The notes beneath the pieces are model-generated. The model was not told the DNA's origin. It made no database searches and was given only the letters and a program-made list of their open reading frames with translations. A stretch of DNA of 6,525 nucleotides from Candidatus Brocadiaceae bacterium (GTDB lineage Bacteria; Planctomycetota; Brocadiia; SM23-32). The DNA is taken from positions 1 through 6,525 of the forward strand of contig PUNP01000410.1 in assembly GCA_003551785.1 (NCBI GenBank). The letters run 5' to 3'. Both the position numbers and the translations under genes were made by a program. This document shows positions 257 through 6,525 of the stretch, piece by piece. Numbering within the stretch: position 1 is the first letter of the stretch; each line of letters starts with the position of its first letter.

Positions 257-1264
257 TCACCTTGCACGCGGTCGGAACACAGCTTTAATTTCCACATCCC
301 GGTCAGGCACATTGACGACGGTGGAGTACAGATACGGGTTATAGACAAATTCAACATCACCGGTCCACTCGACGAATTCGAACCCTATATAGGGTCGGGC
401 TTCAATAACCGCCTGTTCTCCCTCCTTATACCTATCTTCTCCCGTTTTATCTTCAACGATACCATACTGGTCGGGCGAAGCGTAAAGCAGGAGTTTATAT
501 CGTGCTTCCTGGAACCTGGCGGTAAGGGAAAAGTCGCGTCCATCCATAATAACTTCAATTTCCGGCTCATCCGGGCTGCCTTCAATAATCACATCCGTAT
601 TTCCTTTCCATCCGGCAAATTCATAGCCTGTTTCAGGTACGGCACGGACGCGAGCGGTATCACCGATATTATAGCTTTCTTTTCCAGTCAGGTCACGGAC
701 ATCCCCCCTTCCGTCTGCGCCGAGCAGGATGGGGATATCCCGCAAAGCGGCGATAACATCGAGTTGATCCTCCAGACGGGCCTTAGCCGCAATAGCGACA
801 TCGAGTCTCTCCTGGTAAGCGGCCAGTTCAATTTGGGTCTGTATATGTGACGCCTTCTCCACTTGCAGGCGTCTTTGGGTATCCTCATGGGCGGCTATTT
901 CACGGCGCAATTCCTCTTTAGTTGCTTCATGGGCGGCAATTTCCGCTTCAAGCCGGCTGCGTACCTCGGCGAGCTCAGTACGCGCTCCTCGCAGTTCATC
1001 AAGCGCCTGCTCATACCGGGCAAAAAGCTGCTCCATTTCGCTTTCTACCTCGGCAAGCCGCTCCTTTGTATCCTCCAGCAGCGCTTCGGTCTCGCTCAAC
1101 TGATCCAAAACAGCCTGATGCTCTTCGAATTCAACCATCCCCTGGATGATAAATATTTGTATGACAACAATGAGTATCAGCGCACCGGCCGTGCAGCAGA
1201 AGACATCGACAAATGACCAGTTCAGCATCCCATCGTCATATTCTCTCGCATAATATTCTGCCAT
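257..1264 (-). CDS. Single-TM, coiled-coil, InlB-like repeat protein (putative MotB/ExbD-like partner)
   Basis: 335 residues, apparently complete. Residues 18-40 form one hydrophobic helix, starting SFVDVFCCTAGALI. The Asp at 20 sits at the membrane entrance, as does the proton-carrying Asp of MotB, TolR and ExbD. Residues 44-175 are strongly heptad-like, rich in E, A, L and R with repeated EIAAHE, and should form a long coiled coil. Two beta repeats follow, about 178-252 and 255-331. Each has the pattern Y-x-x-GE/D, then A-x-P-x-x-G-(Y/F)-x-F-x-x-W-x-G, ending in A-x-F, as in divergent InlB B-repeats (Flg_new_2 class). The predicted topology is a short cytoplasmic N-terminus with coiled coil and repeats outside the inner membrane. 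There is no OmpA-like peptidoglycan-binding domain. The upstream neighbour on the same strand encodes a MotA/TolQ/ExbB-type channel, which suggests a stator-like complex. The AAAGGA sequence is close to the ATG; another AGGA lies further upstream. Function is inferred; membrane topology and repeat calls are fairly secure. Confidence 0.85.
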   Translation of the reverse strand: MAEYYAREYDDGMLNWSFVDVFCCTAGALILIVVIQIFIIQGMVEFEEHQAVLDQLSETEALLEDTKERLAEVESEMEQLFARYEQALDELRGARTELAEVRSRLEAEIAAHEATKEELRREIAAHEDTQRRLQVEKASHIQTQIELAAYQERLDVAIAAKARLEDQLDVIAALRDIPILLGADGRGDVRDLTGKESYNIGDTARVRAVPETGYEFAGWKGNTDVIIEGSPDEPEIEVIMDGRDFSLTARFQEARYKLLLYASPDQYGIVEDKTGEDRYKEGEQAVIEARPYIGFEFVEWTGDVEFVYNPYLYSTVVNVPDRDVEIKAVFRPRAR

Positions 1265-1297
1265 ATCCTTTCGTATCCTGTAAATTTAATTATCTTT

Positions 1298-1325
1298 ATT
1301 CTATCAGCTCAAAAATGAGGCTCAA
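1298..1325 (-). promoter_or_regulatory. Candidate promoter for the coiled-coil/InlB-repeat gene
   Basis: On the minus strand a TTGAGC -35-like box (1325-1320) is separated by 16 bp from a TAGAAT -10-like box (1303-1298). This is about 34 bp before the ATG at 1264. It fits an independently transcribed gene, as expected from the 700-bp gap to its upstream neighbour. The -35 matches only 4 of 6 consensus positions. Confidence 0.35.
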
Positions 1326-1360
1326 TACTAAATCGCTAATCCGCGTGGTGCCGTTTTTTT

Positions 1361-1440
1361 CGTGACTTCGTGACTTCGTGACTTTGTGACTACGTGTCTG
1401 TCTGACTGTGTGACCTCAGGACATCGTGACTTCCTGAGTT
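1361..1440 (+). repeat. Octamer tandem array, consensus CGTGACTT, 10 units
   Basis: The first three units (1361-1384) are identical CGTGACTT. The following units drift (TGTGACTA, CGTGTCTG, TCTGACTG, TGTGACCT, CAGGACAT) while keeping an exact 8-bp register through 1440, with one more perfect CGTGACTT at 1425-1432. The period is not a multiple of three and no gene spans it. The fresh left end and decayed right end suggest slippage or recombination-driven growth from one side. Confidence 0.85.
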
Positions 1441-1580
1441 TGAGCTATACCTACCCCATTCCGCCGTTGCCGTTGCCTTACCCAAGAACTCACTTCCCGT
1501 TCCTCAGGATTCTCCGCATCCTGCCGTTAGGCGCAATCTTAAAACCCGTCTTCCCATCGTTCTCTGCAGTCGTTACATTA

Positions 1581-1679
1581 CCCGGCCACTTTCACGCTCA
1601 ATGGGGAACCCCGTCAAAAGTTTTTGCCAAGCTTTTTCCAAAAAGCGTCGTCGTTCAGTCGTTGTCTGCCGTTGTCGTT
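1581..1679 (+). repeat. Dispersed 99-bp repeat, copy 1
   Basis: Aligns without gaps to 3705-3803 (constant offset 2124) with five mismatches in 99 positions. It runs from CCCGGCCA through GGGGAACCCCGTC and AAAGTTTTTGCCAAGC to GTTGTCGTT. The central part, GGGAACCCCGTCA to AAGCTTTTTCC, is shared with the 109-bp tandem repeat at 6301-6525, so all belong to one family. The copy is in direct orientation relative to the one beyond the channel gene. Confidence 0.85.
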
Positions 1680-1765
1680 ACCCCAAGCTCTCCGCCGTTA
1701 GTCGTAATCCTTTTTCGTGTATTTTTCTTATTTCGCGGTCTGCATTCGTTGCCGTATTTTTTGCC

Positions 1766-1792
1766 GTTCTCTGTGTTCTCTGTGTTCTCTGC
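1766..1792 (+). repeat. 9-bp tandem repeat GTTCTCTGT, 3 units
   Basis: Two identical GTTCTCTGT units are followed by GTTCTCTGC. A related, degenerate CTCTGCG run occurs near 3862-3890 in the second repeat tract, at the equivalent place in the composite module. Confidence 0.6.
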
Positions 1793-1838
1793 GGTAACAG
1801 CCTTTGTCGTCGCCGTCGTCGTTGCCGTTGCCGTTGTC

Positions 1839-1878
1839 GTTTATCCCAGCATCTCAGCATTTCAACATTTCTGCATTT
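1839..1878 (+). repeat. Octamer array CNRCATYY, copy 1 (5 units)
   Basis: The in-register units are GTTTATCC, CAGCATCT, CAGCATTT, CAACATTT and CTGCATTT. The same family is seen at 3801-3848 and 4103-4198. It begins directly after a GTTGTC/GCCGTT run and ends eight bases before the GACAGGCA palindrome. Confidence 0.8.
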
Positions 1879-1886
1879 AACCCCGC

Positions 1887-1905
1887 GACAGGCAAGATGC
1901 CTGTC
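1887..1905. repeat. GACAGGCA palindrome, copy 1
   Basis: GACAGGCA, AGA loop, TGCCTGTC: a perfect 8-bp stem with a 3-nt loop. It lies about 60 bp downstream of the stop of the channel gene. The flank CATACTT and the adjacent GCG are shared with the copy at 4208-4226, so the conserved unit is longer than the palindrome. There is no T tract, so it is better described as a repeated palindrome than as an intrinsic terminator, although it would fold at the end of the transcript. Confidence 0.85.
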
Positions 1906-1967
1906 ATACTTCCTCTCCGCTCTGAGCCCTTATCTATCTGGCCGTTAATCAACAGCTTATCAACTCA

Positions 1968-3086
1968 TCATTCCGCGTTTTCCTCTTCTTTTTCTTCGAC
2001 TATTCTAACCTGCATACTGCGTCGTTTTTGCAGCTCATTCAGTGCGGGTTTGAGTTCATCGAGGCTGGAGCGTACCTCACCGAGGGTATTGACCATATTA
2101 CGAAAACTATCGGCGAATGTATTCCAGCGTTTTTCATCCTGTATTTGCTGTTTTTCGAGCATATCGGCGAGCGCATTTTCAAATTTCGACTCATAATTTT
2201 CTATATGAGCGCCGATAACCCTGGCGAGGTCGCGATGCGAGGGGGGCAGGTCTTCTTCCTCCGGGGCGGCGGCGCCTTTGACGGTACCGAGCAGGGTATC
2301 GAGGCAGAACGCATCGAAATGGTTCATCAGGTCCGCGCCGTATTTTCTGGTCATAAACAGAAACATCATAATAACGGCGACTTTAACAAGGGCGAGGAGA
2401 GTTGTTTCAAAAGCGATTCCGAGGTTAGCGGTCAGTACACCTAACTGTTCGCTCAGCGCTTCTCCCGCCCCATCGATCAGGCTGGGGAACTCGGTGACGG
2501 CCAGGCTGATACCGAGCACCGTTCCGGTGAATCCCAGCATGGGAATGACGCGGATAATAAAATGCACAAGCGCGTGTTTATCGTTTATCACCGCTCTGTC
2601 AACATCCGACTGTTCGGAAAGAGTAGCTGTCATGTCAATTATACTGCCGCGGTTCTTTAAATGGTTAAGCAAGCGATAAAACCGCCCCAGGACGATGCCG
2701 CTGGAATGTTCTTCACGGAACTTACCTTGCAGCAGGTTGATGACGTCGTCGGCGCCGGCGCGTTCGATGCTCCCGTAATGTGTCAGCTCATCAGCCGCCA
2801 ACCGAAAAATCCGCCTCTCATGCCGGATAAAGAAAAACGTGGTCAGGAGTTTGAGTAATGCCAGGAAAAAGAAGTAGGTAGTGATGTACGGTATGACCGT
2901 CCGCTCGGTGAATATGGTCTGTAAATAAGTTCCCTGCCACCAGTAATTCACAGCAAATGAATAAAAGAGAACTGTTATTAACAAAGCCAACAGGGCTATA
3001 AACATTAAAGAGGGCAGAAACGTATGCGAACTATGCTGGGCACGAAACTGATACTTTGCTTTCTTTTTTTTCTTCACGGATACCAT
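1968..3086 (-). CDS. MotA/TolQ/ExbB-type proton-channel family protein
   Basis: 372 residues, complete. A lysine-rich N-terminus (KKKKK at 5-9) precedes four predicted membrane helices: about 24-47, 63-87, 171-197 and 221-246. The last two form the MotA/TolQ/ExbB core, with the diagnostic GFTGTVLGISLAV (185-197), a linker with EALSEQLGVLTANLG, and GIAFETTLLALV (223-234), whose threonines correspond to the pore-lining region of the family. Residues 88-170 are a cytoplasmic loop. From about 255 to the end a charged region with heptad character (ENALADMLEKQQ, SLDELKPALNELQKR) forms a cytoplasmic coiled-coil tail. Such subunits assemble around a single-TM partner to convert proton or sodium flow into movement. 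The downstream co-directional gene supplies a plausible partner. GAGG lies 9 nt before the ATG, supporting this start. The family assignment is strong; substrate and cargo are unknown. The tail is longer than in TolQ or ExbB. Confidence 0.9.
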   Translation of the reverse strand: MVSVKKKKKAKYQFRAQHSSHTFLPSLMFIALLALLITVLFYSFAVNYWWQGTYLQTIFTERTVIPYITTYFFFLALLKLLTTFFFIRHERRIFRLAADELTHYGSIERAGADDVINLLQGKFREEHSSGIVLGRFYRLLNHLKNRGSIIDMTATLSEQSDVDRAVINDKHALVHFIIRVIPMLGFTGTVLGISLAVTEFPSLIDGAGEALSEQLGVLTANLGIAFETTLLALVKVAVIMMFLFMTRKYGADLMNHFDAFCLDTLLGTVKGAAAPEEEDLPPSHRDLARVIGAHIENYESKFENALADMLEKQQIQDEKRWNTFADSFRNMVNTLGEVRSSLDELKPALNELQKRRSMQVRIVEEKEEENAE

Positions 3087-3111
3087 CCTTCAATTCCTCA
3101 TTAAGATATTA

Positions 3112-3140
3112 ATTGTAAATTTCTTGTTTTTTTTTGGCAA
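3112..3140 (-). promoter_or_regulatory. Proximal promoter of the channel gene
   Basis: TTGCCA (3140-3135) and TACAAT (3117-3112) on the minus strand are separated by 17 bp, each matching 5 of 6 sigma70 consensus positions. The spacer is an A-rich run. The predicted start point is about 20 bp upstream of the ATG at 3086, giving a short leader that includes the GAGG ribosome-binding site. Confidence 0.55.
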
Positions 3141-3394
3141 AAGGGTGCTGGTTGTTGGTAAAACGACATCGAAGCTTTTTTGGAATTGAGCAATTTTTCA
3201 TCTTTCCGTCTCGGCTGTCATTTGTATGATTTGTTGGCTGTCCACCAGCAACCTGCAACGACTTTTCCGGCGTGTCCGTGTTATGAGATTATTCGAGTTC
3301 TGAGTAAGCCCTGTCTCCCGGCAACGGCAAACGGCGGTCTCAGCGTCCATAAAAAAAATAAAATGTGGTTTACAGAAGATTTAGGGTGTTGGTT

Positions 3395-3432
3395 AATAGT
3401 ATTATGATATACGTTTTGAATACTATTGTCAA
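3395..3432 (-). promoter_or_regulatory. Distal promoter with overlapping 9-bp inverted repeat (operator-like)
   Basis: On the minus strand a perfect TTGACA (3432-3427) and TATCAT (3409-3404) are spaced by 17 bp. AATAGTATT (3395-3403) and AATACTATT (3419-3427) are perfect 9-bp inverted arms. One abuts and overlaps the -35 by one base within the spacer; the other lies just downstream of the -10, over the expected start point. This is the arrangement expected for a repressor operator. There is no regulator gene in the window. It would drive a long leader into the channel gene or an unannotated small RNA. Confidence 0.5.
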
Positions 3433-3478
3433 ATGTAAGTTTTAATCGGTGAAGGATATTCAAGGTAGAAGCTGCTCC

Positions 3479-3493
3479 AACGGGCACCCCGTT
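3479..3493 (+). terminator. Small hairpin followed by TTTAATTATT, weak terminator candidate
   Basis: AACGGG, CAC loop, CCCGTT forms a 6-bp perfect stem, followed on the plus strand by TTAATTATT. No plus-strand gene leads into it, so a terminator role is doubtful. Confidence 0.2.
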
Positions 3494-3579
3494 TTAATTA
3501 TTGGTTCTTCCCGGACAGGTGCCGTCCATTCAGACACTTCTGTTTTCGCCCCGGCGGGGGGCACGGCCGAAAACCCGGC

Positions 3580-3659
3580 TCGTAGTCGACGCTTTCAAGC
3601 GTCCCGGGGAGCGCGTAACAATTTCCGGACTCCGGAGCCCTTGAAAGGGCTCACTACGA
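3580..3659. mobile_element. 80-bp nested inverted-repeat element (REPIN/MITE-like)
   Basis: Terminal arms TCGTAGT (3580-3586) and ACTACGA (3653-3659) enclose two perfect hairpins. One is GACGCTT-TC-AAGCGTC (3588-3603). The other is GAGCCCTT-GA-AAGGGCTC (3635-3652). Between them is TCCGGA repeated twice. No coding capacity. The symmetry of two palindromes in inverted arrangement is that of a REPIN or small MITE mobilised in trans; no transposase is present. Confidence 0.6.
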
Positions 3660-3683
3660 ACATTTTATTGCCTTTTCGGCCAA

Positions 3684-3803
3684 GTTCCCAAGAGTTGTTC
3701 ATTTCCCGGCCATTTTCACGACCACTGGGGAACCCCGTCAAAAGTTTTTGCTAAGCTTTTTCCAAAAAGCGTCGTCGTTCAGTCGTTGTCTGCCGTTGTC
3801 GTT
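3684..3803 (+). repeat. Dispersed repeat, copy 2 (links the 99-bp and 109-bp versions)
   Basis: The right part, 3705-3803, is the near-identical partner of 1581-1679. The left part, GTTCCCAAGAGTTGTT (3684-3699), is absent there but present in the 109-bp tandem units at the right edge. This copy therefore bridges the two variants. On the minus strand it can fold TTCCC...GGCCGGGAA-type pairs, with a G-T wobble where the tandem copies have a Watson-Crick pair. Confidence 0.8.
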
Positions 3804-3848
3804 TATCCCAGTATCCCAGCATTTCAACATCTCTGCATTTTCGCATTT
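3801..3848 (+). repeat. Octamer array CNRCATYY, copy 2 (6 units)
   Basis: In-register units run GTTTATCC, CAGTATCC, CAGCATTT, CAACATCT, CTGCATTT, TCGCATTT. It starts at the end of the 99-bp repeat, whereas the equivalent array near 1839 is separated from its repeat by about 160 bp. Confidence 0.8.
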
Positions 3849-4039: not shown

Positions 4040-4102
4040 TTTGCTTGCCGTTTCACCGTTGTCTCTCCCCCTCTGCTCTAAGCCCTCCGCCCCACGCCTT
4101 AA

Positions 4103-4198
4103 CGCCATCCCAGCATCCCGACATTCCAGCATCTCAGCATTTCAACATTTCAACATTTCTGCATTTCTGCATCCCGACATCCCAGTATCTTGGCATTT
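4103..4198 (+). repeat. Octamer array CNRCATYY, copy 3 (12 units)
   Basis: Twelve consecutive octamers in unbroken register. All have AT at positions 5-6, and eleven of them have CAT at positions 4-6 (CAGTATCT is the exception). Units include CGCCATCC, CAGCATCC, CGACATTC, two identical CAACATTT, CTGCATTT and CAGTATCT. It ends ten bases before the GACAGGCA palindrome at 4208. The frame is not coding; its translations are repeats of ISAFQHF or EMLKCRD type. Confidence 0.85.
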
Positions 4199-4230: not shown

Positions 4231-5004
4231 TTACCCTCTGCGGAACCCTAACAGTTCCATTCCGACGCGGCAGATGAACTGAGGCCCGTCGACGAAGCAT
4301 CGACGCCAGCATTTTTTGGGTTCCTGTGCGAGGCGCCAGGCCCATTCCAGGCCGAGTTTCTGGAGCGGGACGGGAGCACGTTTGACGGTGCCGGCGAGGA
4401 AGGAGAAGATAGCGCCGATACCGCAGGCGACCGGCACATCGAGGCGGTTTTTATGCTCGGCGATCCATTTTTCCTGTTTGGGGCATCCGAGCCCGACCCA
4501 GAGCACATCCGGGTGGGCGTCGTTGATCATTTGCACATGCTGTTGGTCCTCTTCCGGGGAGAGGGAGCGGAACGGCGGCGAGTACATGCCGGCTATTTTC
4601 AGGTCCGGGTACATCACTTTCAGCCGTTCATCCAGTTTTTCGAGTGTTTGCGGTGTGTCGCCGTAGAAAAACTGGGAATACCCCTTCTCTTCACTGAGTT
4701 CGAGAACTTCTTTAACATACTCGGGCCCGCCGATACGCTTCATGTTATAACCGCGTGCTTTCGCGATGAGCGAATAAGAAATCCCGTCCGGGACCCAGAA
4801 CTCGGCGGAATTGAGAACATTTTGGTAATCGGGACTCTCCGCTCCCATCCAGATGCCGTGGAAACCGGTATTGACGATATGCGCGCAGTGGGCGCGGGGG
4901 TTGTCGATGAGGTATTCAGTGACGTCAACAGCTTCCTGTAGGTTGAGAACGGGGACACGGGCGCCGAGCACTTTAATACGCGGTATGTCGGCTGGTTCAG
5001 TCAT
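4231..5004 (-). CDS. WecG/TagA/CpsF family glycosyltransferase (GT26)
   Basis: 257 residues, full length for the family (about 240-260). Members transfer N-acetyl-mannosamine, N-acetylmannosaminuronate or a related sugar onto a lipid-linked acceptor at the cytoplasmic face of the membrane, in wall-teichoic-acid, enterobacterial common antigen or capsule/exopolysaccharide assembly. Visible family features are VNTGFHG (44-50), VPDG (71-74, Asp 73 at the proposed catalytic-base position), GGPEY (92-96), FYGD (113-116), the signature VGLGCPKQEKW (170-180), GIGAIFSFLAGTVKRAP (195-211) and QKLGLEWAWRL (215-225). The C-terminal segment needed for membrane association is present, with basic patches KKCWRR and FRRG. 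GGAGGT lies 5 nt before the ATG, so the start is secure. It stands alone: no flippase, polymerase or other glycosyltransferase is in the window, so donor and acceptor cannot be named. The final residues RRG and the stop fall in a repeated sequence. Confidence 0.95.
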   Translation of the reverse strand: MTEPADIPRIKVLGARVPVLNLQEAVDVTEYLIDNPRAHCAHIVNTGFHGIWMGAESPDYQNVLNSAEFWVPDGISYSLIAKARGYNMKRIGGPEYVKEVLELSEEKGYSQFFYGDTPQTLEKLDERLKVMYPDLKIAGMYSPPFRSLSPEEDQQHVQMINDAHPDVLWVGLGCPKQEKWIAEHKNRLDVPVACGIGAIFSFLAGTVKRAPVPLQKLGLEWAWRLAQEPKKCWRRCFVDGPQFICRVGMELLGFRRG

Positions 5005-5792: not shown

Positions 5793-6065
5793 TCAGCGCA
5801 GGACCGGGTAGATATCGGGGAATCTTTGCACTTCATCCAATATAACCAGCCCACTGAGCGTTTTATGTGCAAGCATAGGATCGCTGAGCCGGGCCAGGTC
5901 CTCGGGATTTTCAAGGTCGAAATGGTGTGTTTGCCCCTCCCACATATCAGCCACCAACCCGGCCAGGGTAGTCTTTCCGACCTGTCTTGCTCCGATAATA
6001 CCTACAGCAGGAAACTGATCCAGGGCTTTTGTGACGAGCTTGATTTCATTATTTCTCGGTATCAT
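5793..6065 (-). pseudogene. Truncated AAA_14/DUF4143-type ATPase, N-terminal fragment
   Basis: 90 residues corresponding to the first quarter of a family normally near 380-420 residues. The MIPR start is typical. Residues 25-33, GARQVGKTT, are Walker A; residues 73-80, LVILDEVQ, are Walker B with Asp 77 and Glu 78; RFPDIYPVLR continues the family pattern and then a TGA stops it. After the stop no frame continues the expected sensor region or the DUF4143 C-terminal domain. The next recognisable sequence is a repeated palindrome 34 bp on, so the 3' part was probably lost by deletion or replacement rather than by a point mutation. These ATPases are common accessory genes of uncertain function. 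The remaining fragment has ATP-binding motifs but lacks the rest of the fold and is likely inactive. The start is supported by family alignment rather than by a normal ribosome-binding site. Confidence 0.85.
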
Positions 6066-6100: not shown

Positions 6101-6300
6101 CCGATTTTTCAAGAAAAGAAAGAGTTAAATTCTTATTTCGCTCAAGCTTTTCATCCGCAGATTACAGACCGCAAAAAATTTGACCAGGCTCTTTCTTTGG
6201 AGTGCGCATGCGCCCAGCACCGCTTTGTCCCACGATTAGGGCGAACTCATCTTATTCCGTGGACGTATACAATATCCAATAAAGTTTACGCCCCTGCTCC
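6101..6300. other. Short gene-free stretch with a GCGCATGCGC palindrome
   Basis: No supportable gene. At 6204-6213 lies a perfect 10-bp palindrome, GCGCATGCGC, between CTTTGGAGT and CCAGCACCGCTTTG. The flanks GTGC and GCAC are partly complementary, consistent with a further small palindromic element. The rest is AT-rich and featureless. Confidence 0.4.
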
Positions 6301-6525
6301 CGTCAAAAGTTTTTGCCAAGCTTTTTCCCGTCTTCTAATGTTTGTGCAATTACAGCGTTCCCAAGAGTTGTTACATTTCCCGGTCATTTTCACGACCAAT
6401 AGGGAACCCCGTCAGAAGTTTTTGCCAAGCTTTTTCCCGTCTTCTAATGTTTGTGCAATTACAGCGTTCCCAAGAGTTGTTACATTTCCCGGTCATTTTC
6501 ACGACCAATAGGGAACCCCGTCAGA
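6301..6525 (+). repeat. 109-bp tandem repeat, at least two full units, running off the edge
   Basis: Units at 6301-6409 and 6410-6518 differ at a single base (CAAAAG versus CAGAAG), and a third unit begins at 6519. Each contains a potential hairpin: TTCCC-GGTC, an 8-nt loop, GACC, four unpaired bases, GGGAA (6377-6406 and 6486-6515). 109 is not a multiple of three, so this is not a protein repeat. Parts recur at 1581-1679 and 3684-3803. The near identity of the units indicates a recent duplication. Confidence 0.9.

Follow-up and report, generated by a model that had tools for sequence, protein, structure and literature searches.

A putative ion-driven motor pair tipped with InlB-type repeats in a Brocadiaceae genome, and its relatives in Planctomycetota and Verrucomicrobiota

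What kind of machine, if any, is encoded by two neighbouring genes of which one resembles the channel subunit of MotA/TolQ/ExbB-type motors and the other codes for a membrane-anchored shaft ending in InlB-type repeats? Both lie on the reverse strand of contig PUNP01000410.1 of a Candidatus Brocadiaceae bacterium, within the 6,525-nucleotide stretch analysed here (the window), and we call them A (channel protein) and B (shaft protein). We give a probability of about 0.75 to A and B being an ion-driven motor pair of the MotA/TolQ/Zorya kind; this value refers to the pair, which the two main competing explanations, a sensor and an energiser, accept while differing on its job. The two genes very probably encode such a motor, as one variant within a large motor family of Planctomycetota and Verrucomicrobiota. 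That the pair exists is confirmed and its kind is known; what is new is its InlB tip. Open reading frames (ORFs) are mechanical calls throughout, and the features are collected in Table 1.

The A subunit has the architecture given to it by an earlier, sequence-only reading of this DNA. Four hydrophobic helices are predicted (residues approximately 23-41, 63-81, 173-198 and 216-246), and the two motifs singled out by that reading, GFTGTVLGI and AFETTLLAL, are located at residues 185-193 and 225-233. Pro182, Gly185, Phe186, Thr189, Gly192, Leu222, Ala225, Phe226 and Thr229 are invariant across 86 A cores. The features of the superfamily, pore-lining Thr residues in transmembrane helices 3 and 4 (TM3 and TM4) and a Pro at TM3, are present in the window protein, at positions that we assume from the MotA and ExbB motifs. 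Seven basic and no acidic residues precede the first helix, and the two short loops hold 1 and 0 basic residues; we can therefore predict that the tail of A is inside, which would place the coil of B outside, presumably in the periplasm. Among related A subunits, the Pfam family MotA_ExbB (curated cut-off, 22.9 bits) is passed by those of loci L002, L038 and L044 (32.6-37 bits), and that of locus L001 stays below it (17.4). Full-length A profiles searched against the PDB were dominated by coiled-coil matches, and a core-only profile (A6) was used instead. Its best solved chain was 8vvn_C, a MotA/TolQ/ExbB-family protein (E value, 7.9e-6), which we take to be from a ZorA structure, something that the structure listing itself does not say. 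The next related chains were TolQ (0.61), MotA (0.69) and ExbB (2.1), with an overall range of E 0.6-2.6, and four designed helical proteins rank in between, with designed helical repeats at ranks two to four.

The B subunit likewise corresponds to its first description as a protein with one N-terminal helix, Asp20, a coiled coil and two InlB-like repeats. The single predicted helix spans residues 22-40, with Asp20 immediately before it, and the coil of about 134 residues contains no Pro and 2 Gly and is rich in Glu, Ala and Leu. The Pfam family PF18998 (Divergent InlB B-repeat) matches two stretches with an E value of 2.9e-22 and 78.9 bits, against a cut-off of 23.6. InlB B-repeats are the mark of an extracytoplasmic domain type, not of adhesion as such. 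No OmpA-, MotB- or TolR/ExbD-type domain was found in window B at E 1 among 22 Pfam families, and one NCBIfam model of a peptidoglycan-binding protein gave 22.4 bits (cut-off, 305) over residues 29-180, that is, the helix and the coil. A single-helix, Asp-bearing partner encoded next to A, as in ion-driven motors of the 5:2 type, is found at this locus.

The association of the two genes is carried by their linkage elsewhere. The sample consisted of 76 loci fetched from A matches plus L001 and L002, chosen as high-scoring matches and not as every matching genome. To count as a signature B, an ORF had to have a predicted helix, or two at the most, and to show either a hydrophobic-Asp-x6-Gly/Ser/Ala pattern or an LFPFL-type pattern (the latter slightly wider, with Met permitted at one place, for part of the 78 loci); it also had to lie on the strand of A, no farther than 4 kb downstream of A or 3 kb upstream of it. 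Such a gene adjoins A in 74 of the 78 selected loci (39/42 + 20/20 + 15/16), whereas the remaining sequence of the same loci, 1955 strand-kb, has a background of 16 ORFs of this kind. The four misses are L048, L060, L070 and L131; by eye, L048 and L060 have such B genes, and the A gene of L131 ends near the contig end. These counts run over all ORFs; an earlier count, where antisense ORFs outranked genes and nine loci had no called A gene, placed a signature B among the next three in 22/33 loci. The converse test used A8, a 56-position profile built from B helices. It gave 47 matches, spread over 37 of 392 genomes; 46 of them share the strand of an A match and follow it within 5 kb (42/43 once the profile's own four rows are set aside, of which genomes G001 and G039 hold one each and G133 two). 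The sole exception, in G367, is on a different contig from the A match of that genome. Both families recur together, so that a pairing by chance is implausible, and we dropped chance juxtaposition as an explanation.

The closest genomic locus found, L001, comes from genome G001 (labelled Sedimentisphaerales) and has the A gene at 2053-3801, a HEAT-repeat protein at 3798-6743 and the B gene at 6830-8554. The HEAT-repeat protein between the A and B genes has a signal-type N-terminus, and no such protein was seen in the window. By BLASTP, window B matches L001 B with an E value of 3e-12 over the helix and the early coil. With residues 1-80 of L001 B as the query, 24 proteins were found, the query protein included, and all 24 have the motif SFLDV (22 by motif scan, P0032 and P0041 by alignment). 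An alignment of 19 B sequences, window B plus 18 of these 24 (six 553-residue proteins being left out), has Asp20 in every row (19/19), and Ser17, Phe18, Val21, Cys23, Cys24, Thr25, Gly27, Ala28 and Leu29 are also invariant in it. The 19/19 and 24/24 counts stem from a sequence search and not from the signature pattern. The Asp count in the B alignment A7 (103 of 134 B subunits; two L074 sequences, near copies of L072, were excluded) is not independent, since the B genes of the linkage test were picked by the Asp-or-LFPFL pattern. The sequence-only reading had made the proposed ring-plus-shaft pair depend, among other things, on co-occurrence of the families and on conservation of Asp20, and both were found.

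The distal part of B varies among relatives. In the closest ones, it is made up of a stretch and, after this, acidic repeats of the DxDxDG type, and the distance from the helix to the distal part ranges from 110 to 263 residues. The distal part of L001 B has no Pfam match at E 0.01. InlB repeats occur by Pfam in 1 of the 134 B subunits, that of the window, and Ig-like He_PIG repeats in 2 of 134, those of L045 and L145. Different kinds of extracellular-type repeats thus cap the shaft in related loci, and with InlB, Ig-like and DxDxDG tips on related B subunits, the tip seems to be exchangeable. The two He_PIG proteins are encoded at L045:7353-8495 and L145:6748-7806, both ending in these repeats, and the L145 ORF reaches the contig end. 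OmpA-type and TolR/ExbD domains were found in none of the 134 B subunits at E 0.001. The claim that a peptidoglycan-binding domain had been replaced in the window therefore stands as far as window B lacks an OmpA/TolR-type domain and has an InlB tip, and it needs correcting as to what was replaced, as the relatives also lack an OmpA-type domain (0/134); the InlB repeats may rather stand in for a DxDxDG-type domain. A search of 166 loci at E 1 with a profile made from the two InlB repeats of the window gave no match; with two sequences behind it, this profile is weak. Matches to the type VI secretion protein TssO (4/134 B subunits, best 2.3e-5) and to DUF4407 (4/134, best 2.7e-6) are perhaps coil matches. 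Compared with other PF18998 proteins, the window protein shares the two repeats but has a helix and coil of motor type attached to them. GldLM is the motor behind surface adhesin movement in Flavobacterium (described in part of PMC8986121); compared by description, the adhesin is a separate protein there, and in window B the shaft itself includes the repeats.

The pair does not stand by itself, and the earlier reading needs correcting here: it is one branch of a widespread family. In a search of 5.8 billion proteins, window A had 16 matches, the top one being the window's own protein. P0003-P0008 (500-581 residues) share 39-41% identity with it over 82-88% of the query, and P0003-P0007 have the tail tip ELxKRRxMxVRI in common despite approximately 130-210 extra residues ahead of it. 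Genome searches with profile A2, made from window A and five of its relatives, covered the two phyla of L001 and L002 (the latter from the Verrucomicrobia genome G002). At E 1e-8, at least 74 of 392 genomes in the phylum of G001 and at least 83 of 337 in that of G002 have a match; genome tallies are lower bounds because at most three (phylum of G001) or four (phylum of G002) candidates were scored per genome. At E 1e-30, matches occur in 24/397 genomes in the class of G001, and very close relatives are rare (at E 1e-50, 1/161 genomes of the order of L001, its own). No A relative was found in the viral contigs searched, and the plasmids searched gave two weak partial matches (Microcystis and Anabaena). 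In a quick tree of A, with long branches and weak deep forks, the window groups with P0003-P0006 and L001 (Shimodaira-Hasegawa-like approximate likelihood ratio test, SH-aLRT, 99), and next out are L037, L038, L048, L045, L145 and P0009 (95), where the joining of L045 and L145 may be false. A set of loci that we call the FQD group forms one side of a branch (100). Beside two of these motor relatives are fused kinases, a Ser/Thr kinase with an FGE-sulfatase domain at L037:6439-8535 and a kinase with HSP70 at L038:13387-15909.

The 78 loci fall into classes by B pattern: FPF+LLD in 25, FQD+LLD in 17 (plus 8 close variants), SFLD+SFLD in 6, single-B patterns in others (7 FPF, 7 LLD, 4 SFLD and 1 other) and none in 3. 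The window and L001 are of the SFLD type with one B gene. In the FPF+LLD loci (L044, L053, L056, L117 and similar ones, 25 by pattern), the B genes form a tandem pair: the product of one has the Asp, and that of the other has Ser or Ala in its place, a substitution seen in 31 of the 134 B rows. The shaft of these loci might combine the two proteins as a heterodimer, with only one Asp to bind the ion. By gene layout, the 56 of 78 loci where two B genes accompany a single A gene can be set side by side with the AglRQS gliding motor, from which the window differs in its one B gene; the pairing of AglQ and AglS is left unresolved in the available part of PMC9389320.

One class is tied to genes of GTPase-centred conflict systems. 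The FQD group was assigned by hand (25 loci with an FQD helix and 5 in which an LLD-type helix alone was found), and of its 30 loci 22 have a GAP1 homologue, 24 a protein of about 1000 residues and 11 a GYF protein, versus 4, 2 and 0 of the 48 other loci; the GAP1 count used queries from L050 and L067, both within the 30, at E 1e-5. The four GAP1 loci outside the group are L070, which lies in the FQD clade, and L135-L137, which are SFLD+SFLD. By Pfam, GAP1-N2/GAP1-M are found in L050 and L061, and DO-GTPase2 is above its cut-off in L050 and below it in L061. It is possible that the FQD-clade motor is a component of such systems. In the available main text of the paper defining them, no TolQ, MotA, ExbB or TolR is mentioned (PMC7159879).

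If A and B are a motor, we can outline how it might work. By analogy with the solved 5:2 motors described in parts of PMC9389320 and PMC11890865, five A subunits would encircle the N-terminal helices of two B subunits, probably a homodimer (the window and L001 each show one B gene). Either H+ or Na+ would move as the ion between Thr189, Thr228 and Thr229 of A and Asp20 of B, and ring and shaft would rotate relative to each other. The coil of about 134 residues, some 20 nm as a helix, may transmit torque through the periplasm to an exchangeable end piece, the pair of InlB repeats, which would dock on an envelope or surface partner. Force might in this way reach a surface protein or polysaccharide, as the sequence-only reading proposed.

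What such a pair would do is less clear than its kind, and a role mainly as a Zorya-like sensor is possible but doubtful in our view. Here the InlB shaft would be tethered to the envelope, a disturbance or a phage would alter rotation, and the A tail would signal to an effector. Besides 8vvn_C being the closest solved chain to the A core, the ZorA models of PADLOC match six scanned A subunits (best 5.3e-13, in L044), with the window at only 0.007; the tail tip is conserved whereas tail length varies, and GAP1 conflict genes accompany the related FQD clade in 22/30 loci. In addition, L001 has a trypsin-like protease gene near B on the opposite strand, and trypsins are described as effectors in GAP1 systems in the available part of PMC7159879. 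Against this, neither the window nor L001 has a recognised gene for a GTPase or a nuclease (4 of 39 and 4 of 14 ORFs scanned, the rest inspected by eye), and within the same scope no GAP1 gene was seen. ZorAB itself is alike in its MotA/TolQ/ExbB ring, single-helix Asp shaft and long cytoplasmic helical tail of A. It differs in that ZorB ends in a peptidoglycan-binding domain (in part of PMC11890865) and window B in InlB repeats; moreover, no ZorC/D/E-type gene was recognised in the window. No Zorya effector was recognised among the 4 window ORFs scanned, a 6.5-kb view that leaves distant genes possible. We dropped a true Zorya system, as the window ZorA score is weak (E 0.007) and no ZorB is among the best 25 of 34 matches for B.

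Less likely still is that the pair energises outer-membrane transport or envelope upkeep in the manner of TolQR/ExbBD, with which it shares the ring-plus-shaft superfamily and which would fit a window without a recognised defence gene beside the pair. This explanation is opposed by the lack of a TolR/ExbD match in window B (E 1) and in the 134 B subunits (E 0.001), by a shaft and a tail that exceed theirs in length, by the four helices of window A versus three in TolQ and ExbB, and by the absence of a recognised TonB/TolA-like gene in the window and L001 in the ORFs scanned or inspected as above. A flagellar stator was dropped too: MotAB is alike in its four-helix A with cytoplasmic ends and its Asp-bearing B helix, but window B has no OmpA-like domain and a long coil, window A has a tail, and no flagellar gene was recognised in the window. 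Very improbably, the genes are unrelated neighbours, B being a membrane-anchored coiled-coil surface protein and A having another partner, as the 703-bp repeat-filled gap and the chance-level promoter-like sites ahead of B would allow, but the B helix is of the same family as that of L001 B, one gene downstream of A, and 46/47 B-helix profile matches adjoin an A gene.

Several observations weigh against the motor pair. The MotA_ExbB score of window A (22.6 bits, E 9.8e-5) is slightly under the curated cut-off, and two residues near TM3 are odd, Arg179 (Trp in 80/86 A cores) and Lys170 (Ser in 73/86). Full-length window B, searched against the 5.8 billion proteins, found itself as the only relative within a limit of 7996 candidates, and most of the loci (56/78) have two B genes versus one here. 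The A and B genes are separated by 703 bp, and four promoter-like sites were found within 1200-3300, two of them at the B start; shuffled sequences have a mean of 2.6, so these sites are at chance level. No terminator-like site was found in the same interval. With 703 bp of repeat-rich DNA lacking a credible gene between them, A and B are same-strand neighbours for which a shared transcript is only a possibility.

In the open-access literature, a scope outside which preprints and most subscription papers fall, no description of the pair or family was found among the papers listed. A 2025 mBio survey of MotAB relatives, in its available part, reports that non-flagellar relatives differ strongly in structure and that B genes directly follow A, and InlB does not occur in that text (PMC12505986). 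Each of the known motor systems compared has its own kind of distal domain, and one engine with different extracellular-type repeats would show a modular output end, which could be tested in cultured planctomycetes. The family would also hint at what many genes annotated simply as "MotA/TolQ/ExbB proton channel" are for, and with the GTPase conflict link of the related clade it becomes testable whether motors act in bacterial immunity outside Zorya. Only tentatively, we suggest that Planctomycetes and Verrucomicrobia use, besides the flagellar/Tol/Ton and Zorya motors, a further large motor radiation with one ring-and-helix engine and exchangeable end tools, one clade acting inside double-GTPase/GAP1 systems and the window pair tipped to grasp an extracellular-type ligand. 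If so, motor force or stalling would be part of sensing or fighting attack at the envelope.

Table 1 Features of the window, with positions counted from its first nucleotide
Feature	Position	Strand	Evidence
B subunit, single-helix shaft protein, 335 residues	257..1264	-	ORF, Pfam, homology to relatives
Second InlB B-repeat of B, residues ~254-333	266..505	-	Pfam PF18998
First InlB B-repeat of B, residues 183-253	506..718	-	Pfam PF18998
Coiled-coil shaft of B, residues 42-175, no proline	740..1141	-	Composition
Transmembrane helix region of B, residues 16-40, signature SFVDVFCCTAG, Asp20 codon 1205-1207	1145..1219	-	Helix prediction, alignment
A-B spacer, 703 bp, no credible gene, dispersed repeats	1265..1967	.	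ORF list, repeat search, promoter/terminator scan
A subunit, four-helix MotA/TolQ/ExbB-like channel protein with predicted cytoplasmic helical tail, 372 residues	1968..3086	-	ORF, Pfam, helix prediction, relatives
Tail tip of A, residues 351-362, E-L-x-K-R-R-x-M-x-V-R-I	2001..2036	-	Alignment with P0003-P0007
TM4 of A, residues 216-246; Thr228 in 84/86, Thr229 in 86/86 A cores	2349..2441	-	Helix prediction, alignment
TM3 of A, residues 173-198; Pro182, Gly185, Thr189 each in 86/86 A cores	2493..2570	-	Helix prediction, alignment
WecG/TagA/CpsF glycosyltransferase ORF	4231-5004		Pfam
Short AAA_14 ORF, 90 residues, spanning positions 3-81 of the 129-position profile	5793-6065		Pfam

In the rest of the window, the AAA_14 ORF is perhaps a gene remnant. 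The spacers contain dispersed repeats of 104-109 bp (1576-1679, 3700-3803 and 6299-6516) and arrays with an 8-bp period (1826-1886, 3804-3848 and 4090-4198). The element GACAGGCAAGATGCCTGTC is present in three copies in the window, two of which share one orientation.

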